This document shows, piece by piece, positions 8,234 to 26,488 of a stretch of DNA of 61,169 bases. The stretch is from Asaia bogorensis (lineage in GTDB: Bacteria > Pseudomonadota > Alphaproteobacteria > Acetobacterales > Acetobacteraceae), in NCBI GenBank assembly GCA_945873195.1, contig CAMCDA010000006.1, positions 1 to 61,169 on the forward strand, written 5' to 3'. The notes beneath the pieces were generated by a model. The model was given only the letters and a program-made list of their open reading frames with translations, searched no databases and was not told the origin of the DNA. A program made the translations under genes and the position numbers. Position 1 is the first letter of the stretch; every line of letters starts with the position of its first letter.

Positions 8234-8452
8234 CTACTTCGCCGGCGGCTTGGCGGTCCAGTTGTCCAGCAGCGCCGTCAGCGGGTTTGTTTCACATTTG
8301 GTCGTTGAATTGGCCGCGCAGGACGCGGTCGAACTCATTGACGCGGACGTCACCAGGTTGGCGAGCGGAACGGCGGCGCATCCGGCCACCGACAGCACGA
8401 GACCAAACGAAACGAGGACGCTTGCCAACACGACGTGGGAATGGGGGACCAT
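8234..8452 (-). CDS. small putative lipoprotein (72 aa)
   Basis: A 72-residue protein with a hydrophobic N-terminal segment ending in a lipobox-like LSVAGC (Cys about residue 25), so the mature product would be a short lipid-anchored peptide. The remainder is rich in Ser, Thr and Ala and holds two further cysteines. No family was recognised. It stands alone between the SDR gene and mmcB on the same strand. Confidence rests on the signal/lipobox pattern only. Confidence 0.5.
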   Translation of the reverse strand: MVPHSHVVLASVLVSFGLVLSVAGCAAVPLANLVTSASMSSTASCAANSTTKCETNPLTALLDNWTAKPPAK

Positions 8453-8716
8453 TGGACGGTTCCTGACAGGACCGACGCGGACCGAGCCTTCTGCCGCCGC
8501 ACGCGGGGGGTGATCTGGGGCCAGGCGCGCCGCCGTTCCTGGGCGGCGTCTCCGGCGCGCCCATTCTGGGCGGCATTGCTGAATAAACCGTTAACGCGGG
8601 GCGTTATACCAGCCGTGCTTCCTCGCCTCTGTTCGGCAAGTGTCCGAACGCCACGAATGCCTTGTCGGTTGCTCAAATTGGCTGAGGTTTATCCGTAACC
8701 AGGAAGCCGGTTGGAA

Positions 8717-9187
8717 TTATTCCACCCGCAGCGCGGCGCGCAGGTCGGCGGTCCCGACCGGGTCCTCCATCACCGCCAGCCGCCCCGCGGCCACCACCGC
8801 GAAGCGCTGCATCAGGGCGCGACGCCTGGCCCCGGCGATCCGATGGGACGGGGCCTCCCGCAGCAGGTCCGCCTCCAGCCCGGCCGTGACGATCAGCCCG
8901 GTGTCGCCGGGCAGCAATTCGTACGGGAAATCGGCATCCACCGCGAAGAACAGCGCATCGGCGAAGTCCCGGTATTCCGGCCATTTCTGATCGGTGAGGA
9001 AATCGCGCGGCCCCGACTTCACCTCGATGCACATGAAATCACCGTCCGGGCGCAAGGCCAGGATATCGGCGCGCCGGCCATTCGGCAGCGGCACCTCGTG
9101 CAGAGGCACCCAACCCAGGCGCAGGCACAGCCGAGCGGTGGCGCGCCGAATGAGCGCGGCGCGTTCCGGAAAGCTGACAGGCACCAT
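8717..9187 (-). CDS. mmcB: MmcB-family DNA repair protein
   Basis: A 156-residue protein with the MmcB/DUF2161-type nuclease-like core: RRADILALRPDG, CIEVKSGPRDFLTDQKWPEYRDFAD and a following FFAVDADFP. The Asp/Glu-x-Lys arrangement (D...EVK) is that of PD-(D/E)XK nucleases. MmcB in Caulobacter is part of the SOS-regulated mutagenesis repair set. The start ATG overlaps the stop of the upstream pterin dehydratase gene (TGATG), so the two are coupled. The preceding 264-bp spacer (8453-8716) shows no recognised element. Confidence 0.8.
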   Translation of the reverse strand: MVPVSFPERAALIRRATARLCLRLGWVPLHEVPLPNGRRADILALRPDGDFMCIEVKSGPRDFLTDQKWPEYRDFADALFFAVDADFPYELLPGDTGLIVTAGLEADLLREAPSHRIAGARRRALMQRFAVVAAGRLAVMEDPVGTADLRAALRVE

Positions 9188-9477
9188 CAGACCAGCAGCG
9201 CGTCGATCGCCTGTGCCAGGCGCACGTCGTTGCGGCTGAGCCCGCCGGCGTCATGCGTGGTCAGGTCGATGCGGACGGTGGCCCAGACATTGAACCATTC
9301 CGGGTGGTGGTCCTGCTTTTCCGCGAGCAGGGCCACGCGCTCCATGAACCCCCAGGCTTCGTTGAAATCGCGAAAGCGGAATTCGCGGCGGATCGCGTCC
9401 CGGCCCTCCACCATCGCCCATAGCGGCAGGGTGGTTGGCAGTTCGGCGCGTTCGGATTCTGTCAGGCGTTTCGGCAT
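9187..9477 (-). CDS. phhB: 4a-hydroxytetrahydrobiopterin dehydratase
   Basis: A 96-residue pterin-4a-carbinolamine dehydratase, the normal length for the family. The active-site region is present as [31 protein letters not shown], with the catalytic His pair and the downstream H. The enzyme recycles the carbinolamine formed by aromatic amino acid hydroxylases or acts in molybdopterin-related metabolism. It overlaps mmcB by the TGATG junction. No phenylalanine hydroxylase gene is nearby. Confidence 0.9.
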
Positions 9478-9540
9478 GATCGGCCCCTTATGTGAACCAG
9501 CCGCTTGACCCAGCGGCCGTCGCGGGCCACCGAATACCGC

Positions 9541-9960
9541 ATGAGCGACCTGCGCAACCCAATTCCCTCGTTCGGCCTGCCGCCGAGCATCGATGACCTG
9601 ATCCAGATGGCCGAAAGGGCCTTGGGGACCATACCGCTGCGCATTGCGCGCTATGTGCAGGGGGTGGGCATCGCGGTGGAGGAGATGCCGGATGACGAGA
9701 CCCTGGATGATCTGGACATCGAGTCGGCGTGGGAACTGACCGGCCTGTATCGCGGCACCCCGATCACCGAGCGCAGCGTGTCAGACCCGATCCGGGAGCC
9801 TGACCTGATCTTCCTGTATCGTCAGCCGATCCTGCTGGAATGGATCGAGACCGGGGAGGACCTGTATCGCCTGGTCCGCAACGTCGTGATCCACGAAATC
9901 GCGCACCATTTCGGCTTCAGCGATGAGGATATCGAGGCGCTGGAACAGGAGATGGACTGA
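9541..9960 (+). CDS. metallopeptidase family protein (minimal zincin)
   Basis: A 139-residue protein with the HExxH zinc motif as [13 protein letters not shown] near the C-terminus, typical of the small bacterial metallopeptidase family with a minimal zincin fold (PF06262). The ATG at 9541 is used; an in-frame upstream start exists at 9505 but lacks support. No signal peptide, so a cytoplasmic location is expected. Physiological substrate is unknown for the family. It is divergent from phhB and convergent with the downstream methyltransferase gene. Confidence 0.85.
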
Positions 9961-9974
9961 CCTCGGCCCGAACG

Positions 9975-10595
9975 TCAGCCGCTGATCGTCGCGCGCGATA
10001 GCGCCGGTGTGTAGCGCCACACGCTGGCGGGCGGGAAATTGAGCGGCGTCCATGCCTCCCGCCGCGCCGTCAGGGCATGGCGACGATAGGGCAGCGGCGA
10101 GGTGATGCAGTAGGTATACAGAACGAAGCCGCGCCCCGGCGCGACGCGGTCGATGGCGTCGATGAACACCCGCTGTTCGGCGACCGGCAACAGCACCAAC
10201 GGGATGCCGCAGATGACGCTGGTGATGCGCCCCTGCAGCCGTTCCGGGATCAAATCGGCGGCGGCGCGCGCATCCCCTTCCAGCACCGTCGCGCCCGGCA
10301 ATGCGGTCCGCAGAGAGGCGGCGAGCGCGCCGTCGACCTCCAGCGCGATCAGCCGGTCGGGCGGCAGTCCGGCCTGCAGGAACGCGCGGGCGATCACGCC
10401 GGTGCCCGATCCCAGATCCAGCACGACGCCATCTGCCTCCGGCCATGCGCTGCGGACGACGTTCCGGCAGAGCGTGCGGGAGGAGGGGATGATCGATCCC
10501 ATCCGCAACGGATGGGCGAGCCAGCGGCGCACGAACAGGGCGGCGCCGCTGCCATCGGGTTCCCGGTTGAGCTGGTCGCTGTAGGTGCCGGTCAT
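9975..10595 (-). CDS. PmtA-like SAM-dependent (phospholipid) methyltransferase
   Basis: A 206-residue class I methyltransferase. SAM-binding motif I is VLDLGSGTGVIA (about 58-69), followed by an acidic residue in LIALEVD and motif IV-like CGIPLVLLP. This layout resembles rhizobial PmtA phospholipid N-methyltransferases and KsgA-like enzymes. The N-terminal FVRRWLAHPLRMGSIIPSS matches the PmtA-type start, which binds membranes. Its ATG overlaps the stop of the glycosyltransferase gene by four bases, tying it to a lipid-modification operon. A role in lipid methylation is inferred. Confidence 0.75.
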   Translation of the reverse strand: MTGTYSDQLNREPDGSGAALFVRRWLAHPLRMGSIIPSSRTLCRNVVRSAWPEADGVVLDLGSGTGVIARAFLQAGLPPDRLIALEVDGALAASLRTALPGATVLEGDARAAADLIPERLQGRITSVICGIPLVLLPVAEQRVFIDAIDRVAPGRGFVLYTYCITSPLPYRRHALTARREAWTPLNFPPASVWRYTPALSRATISG

Positions 10596-22865: not shown

Positions 22866-23366
22866 GCTCGTTCACATGGCACGCGTACCCCCGCGTAACA
22901 AGAATGGGATGTGGGATTCCGTTGCTCGGTTAGGCATTGCCTTTTGGGGATGGGGCGGTGTAAGTCCGAACAAATGATGAACGTTGATCGCGCGCGGGGT
23001 GGCCTCGGGGGGGCCGGGACGGTGGGATAGCGGGGTGACTTCGCCCCCGGTCGGGCCGGACGATTTTTTTCATATGATGGCACCCCATGTCCGGTGAGCC
23101 GACGCCCCCTCTCCCCCTGTGGGCTTGGGCCGCGAAGCGGATCAAGGCCGGGGGTAAGGGGGCATCGCGGCACTGACCTGGGGGGTTGCGACCCCTCACC
23201 CCGACCCTCTCCCGCAAGGGGAGAGGGGGAAGAGAGGATTTTCGCATGGCGGAACCCCATGTCCGGTGAGAAATCACCCGCATTGGGGCCGCCACTAGGG
23301 GTATTCCCCTGGACCCCCGTGCCACCCGTCCGCTACGGTTCCGGCAACAAAGGGAAGAGTTCGTCC
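22866..23366. repeat. repeat-rich spacer before the Trx/UGSC cassette
   Basis: This 501-base spacer holds no convincing gene. It contains two copies of ACCCCATGTCCGGTGAG (23082-23098 and 23254-23270), each preceded by a T-run. Between them lie GC-rich palindromic sequences of the common CCCTCACCCCGACCCTCTCC type (about 23191-23232). A third copy of the 17-mer is at 29284-29300. These look like dispersed extragenic repeats. Confidence 0.65.
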
Positions 23367-24809
23367 ATGCCCAACGACACGGCCCCCATGCCGTCCGACG
23401 GACTGATCGTGGTGGTCAAGCGTGACTGCCCGACCTGCGAACTGACCGTGCCAGTGATCGCGGAACTGCGTCGGCTTGGCGCGGTGACCGTTTATACCCA
23501 GGACGACCCGACCTTCCCCGATGGCGTCCCCGTGATCGATGACACTGGTCTTGATGTCTCCTACCGGCTGGGTATCGAAATCGTCCCCACCCTGATCCGC
23601 CGCCAGGACGGCCAGGACGTCGAACGCACCCATGGCTGGGACCGCGCGGAGTGGGAGCGTATCTCCGGGTTCCAGGGCATTGGCGCCGACCTGCCGGCCT
23701 TCCGTCCGGGTTGCGGGGCGAAGAACCTCGAACCCGGCATCCTGGAAAAGCTCAAGGTCCGGTTCGGCGAGACCGGCCTGACCGCCCGCCGCGTCACCAT
23801 CGGCGACCAGGAAGACGAATTCGAGGCGATGTTCGAACGCGGCTGGTCCGATGGCCTGCCGATGGTCCCCCCGACCGAGGAACGCGTCCTCCGCATGCTG
23901 ACCGGCACCGCGCGTGACCCGCGGGAGGTCATTGGCCTGGCCCCGCCCAACCTGATCCCGCTGACAGTGGAAAAGGTCGCGATCAACGCCGTGATGGCCG
24001 GCTGCCGCCCGGACTATCTGCCGGTCGTGCTGGCAGCGGTGGAGGCCGCGCTCGACCCCGCCTTTGCCTGGCATGGCGTGCTGGCGACCACGATGTTCGT
24101 CGGCCCGGTCGTGATGGTGAACGGCCCCGTCCGCCGCCAGATCGGCATGAACGCCAAGGGCAACGCGCTGGGCCAGGGCAACCGCGCCAATGCGACGATC
24201 GGCCGAGCGGTGCAGTTGATTGTGCGGAATGTGGGGGGTGGACGGCCGCAGGAGGTCGATCGCGCCACCTTGGGCAATCCCGGCAAATACACCTACTGCT
24301 TTGCCGAGGACGAGGAAGGCTCCTCCTGGGAACCTCTGTCCACGGAACGCGGCGTGGCGCGGGGCGTGTCGGCCGTCACGGTCTTCGCAGGCTTCGGCCT
24401 GCAGGGGATCGTCGACCAGAAGTCCCGCGATCCGGAAAGCCTGTCGCGCTCGATGGCCGAGAGCTTGAAAGCCATCCACAACGTCAAGCTCGCGCCGTCC
24501 TGCGATGCCATCGTCGTGGTCTGCCCCGAGCATGAGCGGACCTTCCGCGCCGCCGGATGGAGCAAGCAGCGGCTGTATGACCAGCTCTACAAGCTGTGCG
24601 AAATCCCGGGGGAGCGCCTGGTCTCTGGCGTCCTGGGCATCGCGGAGGGCCGCCCCGAGTCCGATCGGGGCAAGATGTTCAACAAGTTTCGCCCGGGCGG
24701 TCTGCTGATCGTGCGGGCGGGAGGGGGTGCCGGGATGTTCTCCGGCATCATCGGTGGTTGGTCCGGTGGCGGCGCCAGCTATCCCGTAACCAGGGAGGTC
24801 TTGAATTGA
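23367..24809 (+). CDS. thioredoxin-fold protein paired with UGSC selenoprotein
   Basis: A 480-residue protein starting at the ATG at 23367. The first ~80 residues look like a thioredoxin/glutaredoxin fold with a CPTC pair (Cys 21, Cys 24) and a cis-Pro-like VPTLIRR. A larger domain of unknown function follows, with motifs FERGWSDGLPMVPPTEERV, GNALGQGNRANATIGRA and a Gly-rich RAGGGAGMFSGIIGGWSGGG near the end. The stop TGA overlaps the TTG start of the next gene. Tight coupling to a selenoprotein with a UGSC site suggests a shared redox or detoxification reaction. The reaction itself is not known. Confidence 0.72.
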   Translation: MPNDTAPMPSDGLIVVVKRDCPTCELTVPVIAELRRLGAVTVYTQDDPTFPDGVPVIDDTGLDVSYRLGIEIVPTLIRRQDGQDVERTHGWDRAEWERISGFQGIGADLPAFRPGCGAKNLEPGILEKLKVRFGETGLTARRVTIGDQEDEFEAMFERGWSDGLPMVPPTEERVLRMLTGTARDPREVIGLAPPNLIPLTVEKVAINAVMAGCRPDYLPVVLAAVEAALDPAFAWHGVLATTMFVGPVVMVNGPVRRQIGMNAKGNALGQGNRANATIGRAVQLIVRNVGGGRPQEVDRATLGNPGKYTYCFAEDEEGSSWEPLSTERGVARGVSAVTVFAGFGLQGIVDQKSRDPESLSRSMAESLKAIHNVKLAPSCDAIVVVCPEHERTFRAAGWSKQRLYDQLYKLCEIPGERLVSGVLGIAEGRPESDRGKMFNKFRPGGLLIVRAGGGAGMFSGIIGGWSGGGASYPVTREVLN

Positions 24810-25336
24810 CAGTGCTTCTCGATCCGACATCGGAACACAGTCCGATGTCACGAGAGCGGCTGGCCCGTCCCCCCGGCCTGCAAGGGCTGACGGTGGGCTT
24901 GCTCGACATCTCGAAACCGCGCGGTGACGTGTTCCTCAATCGGCTGGACGAACGGCTGACCGAGCGTGGCATCACCGTCAAGCGCTACATGAAACCGACG
25001 GTGGCGAAGCCGGCGCCGATCCCCTTGCGCCAGCAGATCATCTCGGAAGTGGACGTCATCATCGAAGGGCTGGCGGACTGAGGCTCCTGCACATCGTGCT
25101 GTACGCATGATCTTGCGGACCTTGAGTCCAACGGTATCCCTTCGGTTGGTGTCGCCACCACCGAGTTCATTGACGCCGCCGCGGCGCAGTCCAAGGCGCT
25201 GGGCACCGACCCGGCCTATGTGTTCGTGCAGCACCCCGTGCAGGACCGCACGGACCAGGAGCTGCGTGACATGGCCGACCAGCATTTCGACAGTATCCTG
25301 TCGATGCTGGTGAAGGAGGCAAGCCGAGCGGGCTGA
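24806..25336 (+). CDS. UGSC-family selenoprotein (in-frame TGA = selenocysteine 92)
   Basis: A 176-codon gene interrupted only by one TGA at 25079-25081, in frame with 91 codons before and 84 after. The TGA is followed by GGC TCC TGC, giving Sec-Gly-Ser-Cys, the signature of the UGSC selenoprotein family, then TSCCTHD. A hairpin with bacterial SECIS geometry starts 5 bases later. Downstream residues GIPSVGVATTEF and AYVFVQHPVQDRT are well-ordered coding sequence ending in TGA at 25334-25336. The TTG start at 24806 overlaps the previous stop and has GGGAGG 7 bases upstream; GTG 24812 is an alternative. The family is a selenoprotein of unknown function. Confidence 0.88.
25079..25081 (+). other. 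selenocysteine codon TGA
   Basis: This TGA would be read as selenocysteine rather than stop. The reading frame continues for 84 more codons with family-like protein sequence, and the next codons give Gly-Ser-Cys. Decoding needs SelB, tRNA-Sec (selC), SelA and SelD, none of which is in this window. Confidence 0.85.
25087..25118 (+). promoter_or_regulatory. bacterial SECIS-like hairpin
   Basis: Immediately after the in-frame TGA, a 7-bp stem AUCGUGC/GCAUGAU (25093-25099 with 25105-25111, one G-U pair) closes a 5-base loop UGUAC. A lower stem (25087-25091 with 25113-25118) is separated by a C-C mismatch and has a single U bulge. The loop begins 19 bases past the A of TGA and has a G in its first two positions. 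That agrees with known bacterial SECIS elements, in which the apical loop lies roughly 16-37 bases from UGA. SelB would bind it. Confidence 0.75.
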
Positions 25337-25341
25337 GCCTT

Positions 25342-25370
25342 ACCGCCCCCTTCCGGTGGGAGGGGGCGGT
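25342..25370 (+). terminator. hairpin after the selenoprotein gene
   Basis: A perfect 9-bp stem ACCGCCCCC / GGGGGCGGT with an 11-base loop starts six bases after the selenoprotein stop codon. It lacks a T-tract but is well placed to end the two-gene transcript. Confidence 0.6.
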
Positions 25371-25534
25371 CCTTGGCACAGTGTTACACGCACCGCAGCA
25401 AATGTCGCGATATCAAGGCTCTGTCGGGAAACACAGGGCAACAATGATTGACTGGCCACCCCGCCGATCCGGGTCTAATGGCAAACTCGACCCCGGGCGA
25501 AGTCGCCCATGACGGGTCCCGAGGATTGACCAGA

Positions 25535-26488
25535 ATGGACCACCCCCTGCCGATCGATCAGCGGATTGCCCCCCAGGACGGGTTCCGTTCGTGGCGGCAA
25601 CACACGCTGAAATCCTCGATCAGCTGCGTCGGCGTCGCGGTCCATTCCGGCCGCCGGGTCAGCCTGACCCTGCGCCCCGCCGAGGCCAACCACGGCATCG
25701 CCTTTCGCCGCACCGACCTGGGCCGGACCATCCCCGCCCGCTTCGATCACGTGGTCGATACGCGGCTGGCGACGGTGATCGCCGACGCGAACTGGGCCTC
25801 CGCCCGCGTGGGCATGATCGAGCATCTGATGGCCGCCTTCGCCGCCAAGGGCATCGACAACGCCCTGGTTGATGTCGATGGCCCGGAACTGCCGATCCTG
25901 GATGGCTCCGCCGGCCCCTATCTTTTCCTGCTGGACTGCGCCGGCGTGACCGAACTGGACGCCCCGCGCAACATCATCGAAATCCGCCGCACGATCCGCG
26001 TGACGGATGGGGAAGCGTTTGCCGAACTCCGTCCCATGCATGGCCACGTGGTTCCGCCCGTGCTGGACATGGAAGTCTCCATCGACTTCAAGGCCGCGGC
26101 GATCGGCCGCCAGTCCCACGCGATGCGCCTGTCGGAGGACACCTTCCGCGCCGAGGTCGCCCAGGCCCGCACCTTCGCCCAGGCCCATGAGATCGAGCAG
26201 CTTCGCGCCAACGGCTTCGCCCGCGGCGGGTCGCTGGACAACGCAATCGTCGTCGACGGCGCGGACGTGCTGAACCCCGGCGGCCTGCGGATGGACAATG
26301 AATTCGCCCGCCACAAGCTGCTGGACGCGGTCGGTGACCTGTCCTTGGCCGGCGCCGCGCTGCATGGCCGGTTCGTGGCCCATCGCACAGGGCATGGGCT
26401 GAACAACAAGCTTCTGCGGGCCTTGTTCGCCGATCAGGCGACCTGGCGCCAACCCGCGGCCCAGGTCCTGGAGGCGGTTGCGGCCTGA
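25535..26488 (+). CDS. lpxC: UDP-3-O-acyl-N-acetylglucosamine deacetylase
   Basis: A 317-residue LpxC, the zinc deacetylase for the first committed step of lipid A synthesis. Zinc-ligand and catalytic blocks are visible: EHLMAAFAAKGIDNA, the DGSAGPYLFLL segment, and NEFARHKLLDAVGDLSL followed by GRFVAHRTGHGLN. The ATG at 25535 is chosen because the conserved protein begins near KSSISCVGVAVHSG; an open frame to 25448 is present but unsupported. It is followed by bamD and recN, an order common in alphaproteobacteria. Confidence 0.93.
   Translation: MDHPLPIDQRIAPQDGFRSWRQHTLKSSISCVGVAVHSGRRVSLTLRPAEANHGIAFRRTDLGRTIPARFDHVVDTRLATVIADANWASARVGMIEHLMAAFAAKGIDNALVDVDGPELPILDGSAGPYLFLLDCAGVTELDAPRNIIEIRRTIRVTDGEAFAELRPMHGHVVPPVLDMEVSIDFKAAAIGRQSHAMRLSEDTFRAEVAQARTFAQAHEIEQLRANGFARGGSLDNAIVVDGADVLNPGGLRMDNEFARHKLLDAVGDLSLAGAALHGRFVAHRTGHGLNNKLLRALFADQATWRQPAAQVLEAVAA

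Follow-up and report, generated by a model that had tools for sequence, protein, structure and literature searches.

The window considered here, a stretch of 61,169 nucleotides from contig CAMCDA010000006.1 of Asaia bogorensis (assembly GCA_945873195.1), contains a reading frame that is interrupted by a TGA at positions 25079–25081 and continues for 84 further codons to the TGA at 25334. This raises the question of whether the internal TGA is a stop or is read as selenocysteine and, if it is read, what the protein might do. A preliminary description had proposed a functional selenocysteine codon in a gene of the UGSC family, and the coordinates of the frame hold (176 codons, 24806–25333). The gene (24806–25336, forward strand) would encode 176 residues with selenocysteine at residue 92; in the translation, U92 is directly followed by Gly-Ser-Cys and then by Thr-Ser-Cys-Cys, as had been described. 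Its start, which was aligned with those of relatives, is a TTG that overlaps the stop codon of an upstream gene, here termed the partner, by four bases (TTGA). Direct reading of the sequence finds a ribosome-binding-site-like AGGGAGG 7 bases 5′ of the TTG (24792–24798, forward strand). Directly 3′ of the gene is a strong inverted repeat (25342–25370, forward strand; 13 pairs, −27.3 kcal/mol), a possible terminator that has no T run and is not among the terminators of the terminator scan.

The family name given in the preliminary description is correct. The read-through product matches the NCBIfam model NF041046, ‘UGSC family (seleno)protein’, with 149.6 bits (cut-off 125) and Pfam PF24696 with 139.6 bits (cut-off 25), and these are its sole Pfam and NCBIfam matches at E 0.001. 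UGSC is a published selenoprotein family, and the window gene is a further member of it: both models agree, the UGSC motif, the Sec/Cys site and a SECIS-like hairpin are there, and no difference appears at the family level (NF041046/PF24696; PMC2398784). In the table of the ocean (GOS) survey, UGSC stands in the fifth row with 255 Sec and 21 Cys sequences (PMC2398784). The expectation that standard annotation would truncate or miss such a gene is somewhat too strong: NCBI has the ‘(seleno)protein’ model, and that name is used in four plasmid records, the first of which is a Cys locus (L062), while two other records say ‘hypothetical protein’.

Among 200 genomes drawn from the order, 10 have a UGSC match, 9 of them above the cut-off. 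The matches above the cut-off number 14, of which 11 have TGA at the site (window included) and 3 have TGC; TGA is retained in ten related loci besides the window, whose own locus is L027. One sub-cut-off locus without the motif (L030 in genome G034) was left out of the counts. A scan of named genomes yielded 74 Cys loci; the pattern used Cys codons, and therefore only Cys forms could be found. The three Cys loci of the 200-genome set recur among these as identical DNA, and the Cys loci come to 77 in total, of which 74 are distinct. The preliminary description had pointed to homologues with Sec or Cys aligned at position 92 as a check, and one or the other is present in 14 rows of one alignment (A1) and 46 rows of another (A3). 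The (U/C)-G-S-C motif is invariant in these 14 and 46 sequences, and C95, downstream of the TGA, is conserved in both alignments. A1 is a fairer test than A3, because the search pattern behind the A3 relatives demanded Cys at the site.

Codons on the two sides of the TGA were compared with those of two relatives. Against L032 (83% identical), omega is 0.205 before the TGA and 0.149 after it; against L026 it is 0.117 before and 0.292 after. Because omega is low on both sides, constraint continues past the TGA, more weakly in the comparison with L026. It should be noted that the independence of the loci is overstated, since three of the 93 duplicate others, leaving 90 distinct, and many come from related species; L028 and L050 have identical cores, as do L021 and L106.

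The SECIS-like hairpin (25093–25111, forward strand), recognized by base pairing and covariation, has the sequence ATCGTGC-TGTAC-GCATGAT, which forms a 7-bp stem with one G-U pair and the loop TGTAC. The stem starts at the 12th base after the TGA and the loop at the 19th, which confirms the positions noted earlier. The open frame and the hairpin each fail to convince when taken singly, because both are common in the window and the folding z-scores are weak. Of 1634 TGA triplets on both strands of the window, 259 precede at least 84 open codons. Of 1643 TGAs, 94 are followed by a stem of 7 or more pairs whose loop is 16–24 bases on, and 34 also have GT in the loop; the z-scores are −1.71 (42 nt) and −0.34 (38 nt). 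Across 11 Sec loci (10 distinct rows), 91.4% of the cells of the stem are paired, against 50% or less in slid controls, and two of the seven pairs have changed on both sides (A-U/G-C at the base and C-G/G-C at the loop). Three of five measures were reached by only 2 of 500 shuffles, whereas the other two, pairs changed on both sides (401/500) and pair types (481/500), do no better than the shuffles. Of the 10 distinct rows, 4 lack the outermost pair and 2 the next one, and the three Cys loci still have 71.4% of hairpin cells paired. An Rfam search of 24500–25800 gave four sub-threshold matches, with no SECIS family among them.

The genome of the window (400 contigs, 97.76% complete) contains all four components of the Sec machinery whose presence the preliminary description had proposed to check, with one match each, well above the cut-off. 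These are tRNA-Sec (searched with RF01852; 76.3 bits, anticodon tca), which lies just after selA (546.2 bits) on contig 131, together with selB (390.5 bits, contig 106) and selD (289.5 bits, contig 72). Moreover, selB is above the cut-off in all seven genomes with a TGA-type UGSC gene (G000, G057, G062, G113, G011, G176 and G181) and in none of eight others (Fisher p 1.6e-4). These eight, chosen from the start of the listing and not at random, comprise two Cys-only genomes, one whose match is below the cut-off and five that have no match. One of the seven genomes with TGA-type UGSC, G181, has both TGA-type and Cys-type UGSC, and in G011, G176 and G181 the selB match is within about 1.3 kb of the UGSC match. 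As a separate observation, the selD of the Asaia genome (L018) is within a 777-codon open frame that also has a Pyr_redox_2 match and is apparently an Ndh-SelD fusion of the kind noted in PMC2398784.

The case for Sec thus rests on the family matches, the conservation of TGA in relatives, the covariation and the Sec machinery. Together these support the proposal that the TGA at 25079–25081 (forward strand) is a functional Sec codon; selenocysteine is very probably inserted here, in a protein whose family is known but has yet to be characterised.

The partner gene (23367–24809, forward strand) would encode a protein of 480 residues, with a thioredoxin-like N-terminal domain (23367–23702, forward strand; CPTC at 23427–23438) followed by a domain of no known family. 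The start ATG at 23367 was chosen from the alignment of relatives, versus the GTG at 23094 given by the ORF finder; the intervening 23094–23366 includes PSPARGEG-type sequence that by eye looks like a repeat and not like a coding start. Most of the best 50 Foldseek matches listed for the N-terminal domain are thioredoxins, with a probability of about 1.00, although none has E ≤ 0.001. Unlike thioredoxin, this domain is fused to a large unmatched domain, and a homologous fused region occurs, apart from that of the window, in 27 of 87 loci, 26 of them distinct.

The second domain has no match in Pfam, NCBIfam or the PDB sequences, and structure comparison gives no confident fold match for it. 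Fumarase matches of the partner were discounted, having a Foldseek probability of 0.6 or less and a TM of about 0.2. The whole partner protein of the window has no Pfam match at E 0.001 (TraF appears only at E 0.088) and no NCBIfam match, and the partner profile finds nothing in the PDB sequences. Seven relatives searched against Pfam show no family besides UGSC itself, in two fused ones, and the partner of L118 has no NCBIfam match. In 41 aligned partner sequences, Asp, Cys, Arg, Lys, Glu and His residues are invariant, and the invariant residues of the second domain include D162, C213, R280 and H389 (partner numbering).

An ORF search of 87 loci finds the partner in 85, all but L086 and L100; a six-frame search of 93 loci, 90 of them distinct, recovers it in L100 and finds it in 92. 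The sole locus without the partner is L086, where UGSC is at the contig edge. Wherever it is found, the partner shares the strand of UGSC, and the gap between the two never exceeds 470 bases (400 or fewer in 91 of 92). In the 200 genomes, searched at E ≤ 1e-10 with at most 8 candidates scored per genome, the partner profile matches exactly the 9 that have UGSC above the cut-off (p 8.5e-16, relatedness ignored), and all 18 matches are near UGSC on UGSC-carrying contigs. UGSC itself shows no similarity to the partner profile. This coupling, as read from the sequences, is what is new here, and the Sec gene, the partner and their association are all supported by sequence.

Fusions of the two units are also found. 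In a Myxococcales locus (L075, about 8400–10108), a single frame consists of a UGAC-type domain with an in-frame TGA followed by the partner, and a hairpin-like stretch after the fused frame resembles those of other Sec loci. In L061 (10695–12344), a second UGSC-like domain, which lacks the UxxC motif, is fused to a partner domain, and an ordinary Cys-type pair is nearby. The 2008 survey describes UGSC fused to a domain called ‘Unknown_1’ (PMC2398784), which, going by that description, is possibly this partner.

The presence of the partner next to UGSC in nearly all relatives suggests a two-component reductase powered by thioredoxin. The reading preferred here is that 24806–25336 encodes a UGSC selenoprotein, with TGA 25079 as Sec, and stands second in a tightly coupled gene pair, and that the two proteins probably form a reductase complex, a view held with some confidence. 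Such a complex would be thioredoxin-dependent: electrons would pass from NADPH to thioredoxin reductase and from there to the CPTC thioredoxin domain of the partner, which would reduce a selenenylsulphide between U92 and C95 of UGSC. The reduced selenolate might then attack a small organic substrate held by the second domain of the partner with its invariant residues. By conjecture, the reaction may be the reductive cleavage of a small organic acid, with chemistry like that of the D-proline and glycine reductases.

Elements of this electron route are found near some of the pairs. Of 93 loci, 3 have a trxA-like gene apart from the partner, and 15, as a raw count, have TrxB homologues (phmmer E ≤ 1e-6); in the 78 others, some of them short, no TrxB homologue was found. 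When seven TrxB homologues were compared with TIGR01292, those of L036, L054, L060 and L079 were above the cut-off, that of L082 fell just short, that of L029 was well below and that of L034 had no match at the limit used; the homologue of L118 is also above the cut-off. On a plasmid of Arthrobacter sp. ERGS1:01, trxB, trxA, the partner and UGSC are consecutive, and trxB is near the pair on a plasmid of Variovorax SRS16. In the window, no thioredoxin reductase is seen beside the pair, which has as neighbours lpxC and, on the opposite strand, a trypsin/PDZ protease gene, neither of them informative. The Asaia genome has 55 Pyr_redox_2 matches, counted at the domain level only.

Other neighbours differ between clades, and no common substrate emerges from them across the 93 loci. 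Five Methylobacterium/Bradyrhizobium loci have an SDF symporter near the pair; among Bacteroidota, BKACE is near it in five loci and AcnX in four. Haloarchaea have clusters of CoA transferases there, and some loci have TTT binding proteins. Hydroxyproline, carnitine/betaine and organosulphur acids, considered as substrates from the AcnX, BKACE and ComA-like neighbours, were not adopted because no more than 3 to 5 of the 93 loci have such neighbours. The ComA-like gene (phosphosulfolactate synthase family) is found near trxA and the partner–UGSC pair in the actinobacterial loci L118 (3660–4448), L077 and L082; the protein of L118 reaches 127.5 bits, short of the model cut-off of 280. A phosphosulfolactate synthase annotated near the Natrinema pair has no match to the Arthrobacter ComA-like query.

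A more far-reaching form of the proposal is put forward tentatively, with the odds somewhat against it. UGSC and its partner might represent a new class of NADPH/thioredoxin-driven two-component selenoenzyme outside the amino-acid-fermenting clostridia, a counterpart of the proline and glycine reductases that cleaves a small acid, and the second domain of the partner might be a new enzyme fold. The 74 Cys UGSC loci are in Pseudomonadota, Bacteroidota, Actinomycetota, haloarchaea and others, with no clostridium named in the record titles, which differs from the clostridial PrdB/GrdB. In Grd operons thioredoxin genes are nearby, and in this some UGSC loci are alike. The partner is not a recognised PrdA/GrdE pyruvoyl subunit, because it has no Pfam or NCBIfam family match, and it shows no similarity to a PrdB-like profile.

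A related question is whether UGSC is a true remote homologue of GrdB/PrdB (PF07355, TIGR04483), reduced to the Sec domain, and more than a mere analogue. UGSC shares the UxxC motif with these proteins. Alignment by hhalign with six PrdB-like proteins places the UxxC and CxxC motifs together, with E 1.3e-4 as a single comparison and a probability of 54%. In a scripted rerun the real score is 34.1, versus 18.9 for the best of 150 column shuffles and 17.7 for the reversed profile; but the probability there is 44%, the best of 100 block shuffles scores 28.3, and hiding the motif lowers the real score to 26.6, inside the block-shuffle range. In addition, PF07355 does not match UGSC at E 0.001, nor does an NCBIfam selenoprotein B model. 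The likeness, as far as these sequence profiles go, would rest largely on the motif and is only suggestive; true homology is possible but rather doubtful. Against the PDB sequences, UGSC alone has no match and its profile has four weak, implausible ones.

The AlphaFold2 model of UGSC (pLDDT 92.0) is a five-stranded alpha/beta structure with Sec just after the third strand and before a helix. Among the best 50 of 1855 Foldseek matches, flavodoxin comes first and the rest are mixed alpha/beta proteins (flavodoxins, TIR, receiver and DJ-1 domains) with TM of about 0.3–0.5; thioredoxin is not among these 50. The model would thus make UGSC flavodoxin-like, and the thioredoxin-like fold suggested in print is not supported by it.

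The Asaia genome also has a PrdB-like frame of its own on contig 127 (L115, 245–1192), with an in-frame TGA in a UPVC motif where the relatives L110–L114 have CPVC or CPIC. It scores 93.6 bits against TIGR04483, below the cut-off of 300, and from its sequence is likely a second selenoprotein of this genome.

A less probable alternative is that UGSC is a selenoprotein for thiol or peroxide detoxification and not the catalytic half of a catabolic reductase, with the partner as a scaffold or regulator. The UxxC motif fits this, TrxB neighbours would suit any thiol enzyme, and two papers, one of them PMC2398784, list UGSC in the parts concerned among redox selenoproteins of unknown role. However, the transport and catabolic neighbours of some loci (SDF symporter, BKACE, AcnX, CoA transferases and TTT binding proteins, as raw counts) point elsewhere, and the invariant residues of the partner are such as an enzyme might have; this reading is considered unlikely. 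Finally, that the TGA is an ordinary stop, giving a 91-residue truncated protein with the downstream frame as a remnant or sequencing error, is very improbable, for although open frames after TGA are common in the window and the hairpin z-scores are weak, ten relatives keep TGA at the same place, the codons past it are under purifying selection, C95 is conserved and the Sec machinery is complete, with selB present where the TGA-type genes are (7/7 vs 0/8).

The published passages on UGSC selenoproteins considered here, among them those of PMC2398784, give no function for the family, and the passages of PMC1088965 do not mention UGSC. The selB-linked ORF of PMC8124441 was considered as a possible link and set aside, as neither UGSC nor thioredoxin is named in the corresponding part of that paper. 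The reductase complex preferred here offers a concrete and testable proposal for UGSC function, since 92 of 93 loci have the partner and part of them also have a thioredoxin supply, fused or nearby.
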